Assembly (NCBI RefSeq): GCF_000515395.1
Contig: NZ_KI911782.1
Location: 124,001-188,000 of the forward strand
Length of the DNA: 64,000 nt
Direction: 5' to 3'
Source: Jiangella gansuensis DSM 44835
GTDB taxonomy: Bacteria; Actinomycetota; Actinomycetes; Jiangellales; Jiangellaceae
Numbering within the stretch: the stretch's first letter is position 1; each line of letters begins with the position of its first letter. Below, piece after piece: positions 47,624-50,313 of the stretch. Below the pieces are notes generated by a model, which was given only the letters and a program-made list of their open reading frames with translations, was not told where the DNA came from and made no database searches. A program made the position numbers and the translations under genes.

Positions 47624-47926
47624 ATCTCAGCTATGAGTTAACTGGCGCCACATTCGTCACATTGGCCTCGGGTGAGTCGCACAGTGGGCGAACTCTCATG
47701 CGCCTCGTGAGGTGCGCACTTGGACGGCCGCGAAGAGGTGCCACATCTCTGACGCCGCTCGCCTGCCCGCCGTTCCCACGACTTCTGGAGACTTATGCAC
47801 TCTTCCGGGCCCGGTCAGCGTGCATAAGTCTCCAGAAGTGTGGACGACGGACCCCGCCGACGGCCGTCCGCACGGGCGCGGGACACTGGGCGCGTCGTGC
47901 GTCCATTCGAGCGACGAGGAGACAGC
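47624..47926. other. 303-bp divergent gap with a long hairpin
   Basis: The gap separates the XRE-MurA gene and the cyclohydrolase gene. CTCATAGCTGAG lies 3 nt before the MurA start and could be an XRE half-site pair. The hairpin at 47781-47839 fills the middle. No small gene is evident. Confidence 0.5.
47781..47839. repeat. 20-bp perfect inverted repeat with nested palindrome
   Basis: ACTTCTGGAGACTTATGCAC (47781-47800) and its exact reverse complement (47820-47839) enclose a 19-nt loop that itself contains CCGGGCCCGG. With one bulge the stem extends by CCAC/GTGG. It lies between divergent genes, so a terminator is not expected. Confidence 0.7.
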
Positions 47927-48547
47927 GTGCGCGATGTGCCGATCGGCGACTTCCTCGACAGCCTGGCCGACCGGGTGCCGGCACCGGGCGGTGGTGCCGT
48001 CGCGGCGTTGCATGCCGCGCAGTCGGCCGCCCTGCTCGGCATGGTCGCCCGCTACAGCACCGGTCCGACATTCGCCGAGCACGCGGATGTGATCGAGCGG
48101 GTGCTGGTGCGCGCCGACGCCCTGCGCGCCGACGCGCTGGAGCTGGCCGAGGACGACGCGGAGGCGTTCCGGGCTGTCACCGAGACGTACGGCCTGCCGA
48201 AGGGCACCGACGAGGAGAAGACGGACCGATCCGCGGCCATCGCGACGGCCCTGGCCGCTGCCGCGGAGCCGCCGGCGGCTGTCATCGTCGCGGCCATGCA
48301 CCTCGTGGCGATGGCCGAGGAACTGCTGCCCGTGGGCAACAGCAACGTCGTCACCGACGTCGCCGCTGCCGCCGACGCCGCGCGCGCGGCCGCCACGACG
48401 GCCCGGCTCAATGTCGAAGTCAACCTGACCGGTGTCACCGACGACGCGGTCCGCGAACGGCTGGAGGCCACGCTCGAAGAGGTGGACGACCTGGCCGCCC
48501 GCGCCGACCGGGTGACCGCCGCCGTCCGCGAGCGGATCGGGTCGTGA
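47927..48547 (+). CDS. Cyclodeaminase/cyclohydrolase family protein (FTCD_C, Fch-like)
   Basis: The 206-residue helical protein begins MRDVPIGDFLDSLADRVPAP with GGGAVAALHAAQSAALLGMV, the FTCD_C signature. The family includes formiminotetrahydrofolate cyclodeaminase and Fch, the methenyl-tetrahydrofolate cyclohydrolase of methylotrophs. GTG 47927 lies behind GAGGAG. Its stop overlaps the folD start, so the two act together; cyclohydrolase activity is the better guess since no histidine-degradation gene is adjacent. Confidence 0.82.
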   Translation: MRDVPIGDFLDSLADRVPAPGGGAVAALHAAQSAALLGMVARYSTGPTFAEHADVIERVLVRADALRADALELAEDDAEAFRAVTETYGLPKGTDEEKTDRSAAIATALAAAAEPPAAVIVAAMHLVAMAEELLPVGNSNVVTDVAAAADAARAAATTARLNVEVNLTGVTDDAVRERLEATLEEVDDLAARADRVTAAVRERIGS

Positions 48548-49386
48548 CGGTGACCGCGACCCGGCTGGGTGGCACCGAGCCGGCCGCACGGGTGCGCGCC
48601 GAAGTCAGCGAGCTGGCCGCCCGGGTCCGGGCCGACGGGCGGCCGCCGCGCCTAACCATCGGCACCGCCACCGACGACGACGCCAGCGCCTGGTACGTCC
48701 GGTCGATCGCGACCGCGGCCGGCAAGGCCGGCATCGACTGCGACATCGTCGACCTCGGTCCGGCGGCCACCGCCGCCGAGATCCGCGGCCGGTTGGCGCA
48801 ACTGAGCGCCGACCCGTCCGTGACCGGCCTGATGATGCAGACGCCGCTGCCCGCCGGAGTGGCGCTGGCCGACGTGGCCGCGGCCATCGACCCGGCCAAG
48901 GATGTCGACGGTGCCAATCCGCTCTCGCTGGGGCGGCTGGCCGTGGGGCTCCCCGCGTTCGCACCGGCGACGGCCGCGGCCGTGGTGGCGCTGCTGGACC
49001 ACCACGGCGTCGAGCTGAGCGGACGCCACGCGGTGGTGGTCGGCCGATCCACGGTGGTCGGCAAGCCGCTGGCTCATCTGCTGCTCGACCGCGACGCCAC
49101 GGTGACCGTCTGCCATTCACGCACCAGCGACCTGGCGGCCGTCACGTCGACGGCGGACGTGCTGGTCGCCGCGGTCGGACGGACTCACCTGATCGGACCG
49201 GCCCACGTGCGGCCTGGTGCCGTCGTCGTCGACGTCGGGACGAACCCGACCGAGGACGGTGGCCTGGCCGGCGATGTCGACCCGGCGGTGGGTGGCGTCG
49301 CGGGCGGGCTCACCCCGGTGCCCGGCGGTGTCGGCCCCGTGACCACGGCGCTGCTGCTGCGCAACGTCGTCCGCGCATCGTCATGA
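48544..49386 (+). CDS. folD: FolD-like methylenetetrahydrofolate dehydrogenase lacking the catalytic Lys
   Basis: The 280-residue protein has FolD landmarks: QTPLPAGV, PAKDVDGANPLSLGRL, VVGRSTVVGKPLAHLL, TVTVCHSRTSDL and GGVGPVTTALL. However, the Y-V-X-X-K active-site motif reads YVRSI (about residues 41-45), and the PCTPXG motif reads APATAA. In FolD/MTHFD enzymes that Lys is required for cyclohydrolysis. It probably retains NADP-dependent dehydrogenase activity only. GTGA couples it to the Fch-like gene. Confidence 0.85.
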   Translation: MTVTATRLGGTEPAARVRAEVSELAARVRADGRPPRLTIGTATDDDASAWYVRSIATAAGKAGIDCDIVDLGPAATAAEIRGRLAQLSADPSVTGLMMQTPLPAGVALADVAAAIDPAKDVDGANPLSLGRLAVGLPAFAPATAAAVVALLDHHGVELSGRHAVVVGRSTVVGKPLAHLLLDRDATVTVCHSRTSDLAAVTSTADVLVAAVGRTHLIGPAHVRPGAVVVDVGTNPTEDGGLAGDVDPAVGGVAGGLTPVPGGVGPVTTALLLRNVVRASS

Positions 49387-50313
49387 CGTCGTCCTGAGGT
49401 CGAGGCGCCAGATCTGGCCGACGAGGTCGTGCCCGAAGCTGTGGTGCCGATTCTCCTCCACCAGCTCGAAGCCGGCCTTCTGGTAGATGCGCCGGGCCGC
49501 CGCGAGCACGTCGTTGGTCCACAGGATCATGGACGTGTAGCCCGCGCCGCGGGCGAAGCGGATGCACTCGTCCACCAGCCGGGTGCCGAGGCCGGAACCG
49601 CGCGCCTCCGGCTCCACCAGCAGCAGTCGCAGCTGTGCGGTCGCGTCGTCCTTGCGCGCACAGAAGACCGCTCCGACGGGCCGCCCGTCCAGTTCGGCGA
49701 CCCAGGCGTTCTCCTTGCCCGGCACGTGATGGTCGACGTAGTCGGCGACGATGCGCGCCACGAGCGCCTCGTATGTCCGGTCCCACCCGTACTCCTGGTG
49801 GTAGAGCGTGCCGTTGCGGCCGACCACCCAGCCGAGGTCGCCCGGGCGGAGGTCGCGGATGACGTACGCCCTGGGCGCCTGCGGCTCGCGCAGCACACTG
49901 CGGATGGTGTCGAACGCGGCGACCAGCCTGCTCCGGTTCTCCTCGGACAGTCGCGTGAGCAGGTGCTCGGCCTGCTGAGCGGAGCGGGTGTCGAGGTCGG
50001 TGAACGCCGCTCGGCCGGCATCGGTGAGCCGGACCGTGAGCCGGCGACCGTCGTCGCCGGACCGGTGCCGCTCGACCAGGCCGGCGGACTCGAAACGGGC
50101 GAGCGTCCGGCTCAGTTGGCCGGCGTCGACGCCGAGCGACCGGCGCAGCTCGCCCACCTCGGTGACCTCGCGCTGCGCCATCTCGAAGACGATGCGGGCC
50201 TCGGTCAGGGAGAACCGGGAGCGCAGCAGGCCTTGGTCCAGGAAGCCCATGACCGTCGTGTAGAAGCGGTTGAACGCTCGCACGGCCGCGATCTGCTCGG
50301 AATGCACGCTCAT
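49381..50313 (-). CDS. MarR-GNAT fusion protein
   Basis: The 310-residue protein joins a MarR winged helix (about 30-140; LRRSLGVDAGQLSRTLARFE) to a GNAT acetyltransferase (about 150-305) with the acetyl-CoA loop EARGSGLGTRLVDECI. Such fusions are known and generally uncharacterised. It overlaps the folD end by 6 nt in convergent orientation. A concentric palindrome upstream is its likely operator. Confidence 0.88.
   Translation of the reverse strand: MSVHSEQIAAVRAFNRFYTTVMGFLDQGLLRSRFSLTEARIVFEMAQREVTEVGELRRSLGVDAGQLSRTLARFESAGLVERHRSGDDGRRLTVRLTDAGRAAFTDLDTRSAQQAEHLLTRLSEENRSRLVAAFDTIRSVLREPQAPRAYVIRDLRPGDLGWVVGRNGTLYHQEYGWDRTYEALVARIVADYVDHHVPGKENAWVAELDGRPVGAVFCARKDDATAQLRLLLVEPEARGSGLGTRLVDECIRFARGAGYTSMILWTNDVLAAARRIYQKAGFELVEENRHHSFGHDLVGQIWRLDLRTTS

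Follow-up and report, generated by a model that had tools for sequence, protein, structure and literature searches.

Gene pair and flanking sequences

The window analysed here, a stretch of 64,000 nucleotides from the genome of Jiangella gansuensis DSM 44835, carries an fch-like gene followed by a folD-like gene (Table 1). The first-pass annotation had placed a gene of the FTCD_C family upstream of the folD-like gene with an overlap of GTGA, and this description is accurate; the upstream protein matches PF04961 with E=2.3e-51 (Pfam). The same GTGA overlap is found at all four of the other Jiangella loci examined, and it suggests that the two genes are translationally coupled. Since the flanking genes are a divergent MurA-like gene and a convergent MarR-GNAT gene, the pair stands alone. 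No riboswitch or other known RNA was detected upstream of it above the Rfam gathering scores.

The surroundings have some features of their own. The MurA-like protein (EPSP_synthase) is unusual in its fusion to an N-terminal helix-turn-helix, and it scores under the NCBIfam MurA equivalog cut-off. In the downstream gene a MarR-type regulator is fused to a GNAT acetyltransferase. The intergenic region between the MurA-like gene and fch contains a 23-nt inverted repeat, 96% complementary, with a 13-nt loop; its core, GACTTATGCAC, is absent from the fetched locus of every other genome, and the repeat thus looks strain-specific.

Table 1 Features of the gene pair and its surroundings (positions are those of the window)
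Feature	Position	Strand	Remarks
MurA-like gene with N-terminal helix-turn-helix	46082-47623	-	divergent from the pair
Inverted repeat	47781-47839		between the MurA-like gene and fch
fch-like gene, FTCD_C family, predicted methenyl-THF cyclohydrolase	47927..48547	+	206 aa; GTG start; PF04961
GTGA stop/start overlap of the fch-like and folD-like genes	48544..48547	+	sequence
Lysine-less folD-like gene, predicted monofunctional methylene-THF dehydrogenase	48544..49386	+	280 aa; GTG start; PF00763 + PF02882
Y51-V-R-S-I55	codons 48694..48708	+	sequence; Ile for the catalytic Lys of YVxxK
Q99-T-P-L-P103	codons 48838..48852	+	sequence; catalytic Gln kept, Thr for Leu of QLPLP
A140-P-A-T-A-A145	codons 48961..48978	+	sequence; in place of PCTPxG
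MarR-GNAT fusion gene	49381-50313	-	downstream, convergent with the folD-like gene

A FolD homologue that lacks the catalytic lysine

The downstream protein belongs to the FolD family by its PF00763 and PF02882 domains and by its fold: an AlphaFold2 model built from a 10-sequence alignment (pLDDT 92.8) superposes on Acinetobacter baumannii FolD (4b4u) with a TM score of 0.93. The predicted model has the two-domain fold of the bifunctional FolD/MTHFD1 enzymes (E. coli 1b0a, human 1a4i and M. tuberculosis 2c2x; TM about 0.87-0.93), and folate- and nucleotide-binding motifs are common to them; however, those enzymes have the catalytic lysine and PCTPxG, and the window protein is without both. The first-pass annotation had read YVRSI in place of Y-V-X-X-K and APATAA in place of PCTPXG while the nucleotide- and folate-binding motifs were kept, and each of these readings holds. 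The folate-binding residues Y51 and D122 are retained, as are Q99, P101, the D-V-D-G motif and the GRS and HS residues, which we expect to bind the phosphate of NADP. The catalytic lysine of YVxxK is the mark of a bifunctional FolD, and with YVRSI in that position the protein, although a FolD homologue by its sequence, should not be filed as one.

All 12 Jiangella genomes have YVRSI or YVRSL, that is, Ile or Leu for Lys, and the same replacement runs through the actinobacterial clade of such FolDs. Identity among the lysine-less FolDs of Jiangella is 78-87%; the nearest named relative is Jiangella ureilytica (L045), at 78% in FolD. Because the motif is shared by 12 of 12 genomes, a sequencing error or a pseudogene was ruled out as the source of YVRSI.

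Association of FTCD_C with loss of the lysine

The genome survey covered 60 genomes, comprising the window genome and its relatives, of which one was without a folD match, so that 59 were counted. FTCD_C is present in 18 of the 19 genomes with a lysine-less FolD versus 3 of the 40 without (Fisher p=4e-11, for genomes that share ancestry and with phylogeny uncorrected). In two of these three (G016 and G044) FTCD_C lies at a contig end, on the side where a folD would be expected. Among 80 named related loci, which were picked by similarity to the query and which, like all the counts, share ancestry, linkage to FTCD_C is seen for 43 of 46 lysine-less FolDs versus 0 of 34 lysine-bearing ones. The unlinked cases are L042 and L095, with FTCD_C elsewhere in the same genome, and L078, whose genome has another FolD adjoining FTCD_C; of the 34 genomes that supplied the lysine-bearing loci, 5 have FTCD_C at some position. 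The pairing has a single exception among the surveyed genomes, G058 (L022, L119), which has a lysine-less FolD (YTHII), no FTCD_C and a lysine-bearing FolD (YIGGK) as well. The pairing of FTCD_C with lysine-less FolD is far beyond chance.

Very probably, the pair encodes a monofunctional methylene-THF dehydrogenase and a separate Fch-type cyclohydrolase whose translation is coupled. The two genes would form a bicistron that splits the reactions of FolD, wherein the lysine-less FolD would convert 5,10-methylene-THF to 5,10-methenyl-THF with NAD(P)+ and would be incapable of the cyclohydrolase step, and the FTCD_C protein would hydrolyse methenyl-THF to 10-formyl-THF. The requirement for the lysine in the cyclohydrolase step, as claimed in the first-pass annotation, is borne out by E. 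coli FolD, where K54N leaves about 19% of the dehydrogenase activity and no detectable cyclohydrolase activity, the latter being undetectable also after deletion of K54-R55 (PMC5688156). In human DHCH, Lys56 works together with Gln100 in the dehydrogenase step and may serve in proton transfer during the cyclohydrolase reaction (PMC3368264).

It is improbable that the lysine-less FolD is still bifunctional by means of another residue, with the FTCD_C protein merely boosting the cyclohydrolase step. The Gln, the Asp and the nucleotide-binding motifs are kept, and the changes to QTPLP and PATAA near the active site would allow for a rearranged site, yet neither E. coli mutant has detectable cyclohydrolase activity, and the FTCD_C gene closely tracks the loss of the lysine.

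Lysine-less FolD as the sole FolD of a genome

In 11 genomes the only FolD above the cut-off is lysine-less. These are G038 and G051, four Nocardia (G064, G066, G068, G076), two Glycomyces (G067, G069), Actinokineospora (G075), Dictyobacter (G077) and a Bipolaricaulota MAG (G080). FTCD_C is present in all 11, unlinked to folD in three, and formate-THF ligase (Fhs) is absent from ten, in none of which FTCD_N was found. As such genomes still need 10-formyl-THF, dehydrogenase activity should be retained by their lysine-less FolD, with the FTCD_C protein as the obvious cyclohydrolase. Methenyl-THF also hydrolyses spontaneously, which has been invoked for the slow survival of E. coli K54N (PMC5688156), and a sole lysine-less FolD therefore does not strictly demand a cyclohydrolase. 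Together, co-occurrence, linkage and the genomes that have a lysine-less FolD as their sole FolD strongly support the split of dehydrogenase and cyclohydrolase that the first-pass annotation had put forward.

Assignment of the FTCD_C protein

The best PDB match of the upstream protein is FchA 7vg4, the FchA of Methylobacterium extorquens, at 110 bits; two cyclodeaminases follow with 72 and 71 bits. The NCBIfam FchA profile matches with E=1.6e-40 and 138.9 bits, which is under the 275-bit equivalog cut-off. The FTCD_C family also includes cyclodeaminases, and the window protein matches both the cyclodeaminase 1o5h and the FTCD C-terminal domain with E about 1e-18. These matches speak for the alternative named in the first-pass annotation, whereby the protein would be a cyclodeaminase acting on formimino-THF, and the FolD beside it a paralogue that has decayed or lost its activity. 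A formimino-THF cyclodeaminase of the FTCD type is recognised by a partner formiminotransferase (FTCD_N), fused to it or encoded elsewhere in the genome, but no FTCD_N was found in the window genome or in 28 of the 29 other genomes checked (29 of 30 altogether). With FTCD_N missing and FchA as the closest match, the cyclodeaminase reading is disfavoured. Decay of the FolD is likewise opposed by the 78-87% identity across Jiangella and by the ten genomes where the orthologue is the sole FolD and Fhs is absent, since the FolD cannot be dead there. All told, this alternative is very improbable.

Genomic and pathway context

The J. gansuensis genome (5.59 Mb, one contig) contains a second, canonical folD, which the first-pass annotation had proposed to search for, at G000:C1:1004849-1005697, with YVAGK and PCTPRG. 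Close to this gene lie an ORF read as purH and, at 1002328, a purN-like gene. The lysine-less pair in Jiangella is consequently an addition and not a replacement, so that the proposal of two proteins stands for the pair itself but not in its wording of two "instead of one".

Among Arthrobacter and other Micrococcaceae the genes lie in a larger cluster with the order GntR, PurU, DAO-GCV_T oxidase, FTCD_C, FolD, FdhF-like, formaldehyde dehydrogenase and MoeA. Here the oxidase is of the dimethylglycine/sarcosine type (DMGDH/GcvT-like), the FdhF-like protein is a molybdopterin oxidoreductase, and the formaldehyde dehydrogenase is glutathione-independent. The gene order tracks the order of a chemical pathway and suggests that N-methyl carbon would be released by demethylation and oxidised to formate and on to CO2. 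The cluster is akin to the purU-mabO-folD operon for nicotine on Arthrobacter pAO1, in which FolD accompanies a folate-dependent demethylating oxidase and PurU in the oxidation of methyl carbon (PMC3891541), and to related demethylation operons. Whereas the pAO1 operon has purU, the Jiangella pair stands alone and no PurU over the cut-off was found in the genome; the second GCV_T match there is short and weak, and there is no clear demethylating oxidase. The Arthrobacter context thus does not transfer to this genome, a role in a betaine/dimethylglycine C1-oxidation operon was rejected for it, and its pair must serve another role. Tentatively, it may be a second, separately controlled branch of C1 oxidation beside the canonical FolD near the purine genes.

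The canonical FolD and the missing catabolic partners could also be taken to mean that the lysine-less FolD has taken on a different substrate or cofactor, such as NAD+ or a one-carbon carrier other than THF, outside ordinary THF chemistry, but this is scarcely credible given that Y51 and D122 are kept, along with GRS and HS, and that the orthologue, as sole FolD without Fhs in ten genomes, should supply 10-formyl-THF.

A separate observation concerns the Paenarthrobacter conjugative plasmid pYJN5-2 (L264:6001-6882), which carries a lysine-less FolD with YVRSI that is annotated as bifunctional; the roughly 6 kb to each side of it contain no annotated FTCD_C.

Relation to known divided systems

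A divided system of this kind was reportedly described by Aluri et al. in 2016 for Clostridium perfringens, where FolD is said to be a monofunctional dehydrogenase and the separate FchA a cyclohydrolase. A Lys-free FolD linked to FTCD_C, the gene arrangement of a split FolD/FchA module, is found in the window and in Clostridia alike: the FolDs that flank clostridial FTCD_C genes have Ala at the Lys position, apart from one with Ile and one unaligned there, and none has Lys. The two types differ in that the clostridial FolDs have YExxA and in most cases have also lost the QLPLP Gln (FRPLP or LMPLP), whereas the actinobacterial ones mostly have YVRSI/L and keep the Gln (QTPLP). The actinobacterial lysine-less FolDs form a clade with Ktedonobacterales and a Bipolaricaulota sequence (support 89/82), apart from the clostridial clade. 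The tree favours two independent losses of the lysine, in Clostridia and in Actinobacteria, with a single clade not rejected (AU p=0.21).

Another separate dehydrogenase and cyclohydrolase are MtdA and Fch of Methylobacterium extorquens. They resemble the arrangement predicted for the window pair, but MtdA is of a different enzyme family, and the dehydrogenase of the window pair is a FolD. Operons of the type fhs-fchA-folD are known from acetogens (PMC3584212). Since Clostridia have a split FolD and FchA, the actinobacterial arrangement is not new in kind; by its sequences it is a variant that differs in motif and clade.

As a side observation, the Gln of QLPLP is changed (FRPLP, LRPLP or FRPMP) in the clostridial FTCD_C-linked FolDs L234, L240, L245, L247, L252, L253, L260 and L263, and this Gln is required by E. 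coli FolD for full activity.

Implications

The lysine is also the anchor for carolacton, a myxobacterial FolD inhibitor to which E. coli FolD K54N is insensitive (PMC5688156), and its loss predicts insensitivity to inhibitors of FolD that are anchored in this way. The pair could then sustain the synthesis of 10-formyl-THF when the canonical FolD is blocked, although it is unlikely that lysine-less FolD and Fch serve soil actinobacteria with a canonical FolD as an inhibitor-insensitive bypass. For a conserved actinobacterial clade the database label 'bifunctional FolD', given for example to the Paenarthrobacter plasmid copy, is probably wrong. If the division of dehydrogenase and cyclohydrolase between the two proteins is true, the FTCD_C gene would provide the folate cycle with its cyclohydrolase, and might be essential, in organisms with a lysine-less FolD as sole FolD (for example several Nocardia and Glycomyces), and metabolic models of such organisms would need correction.
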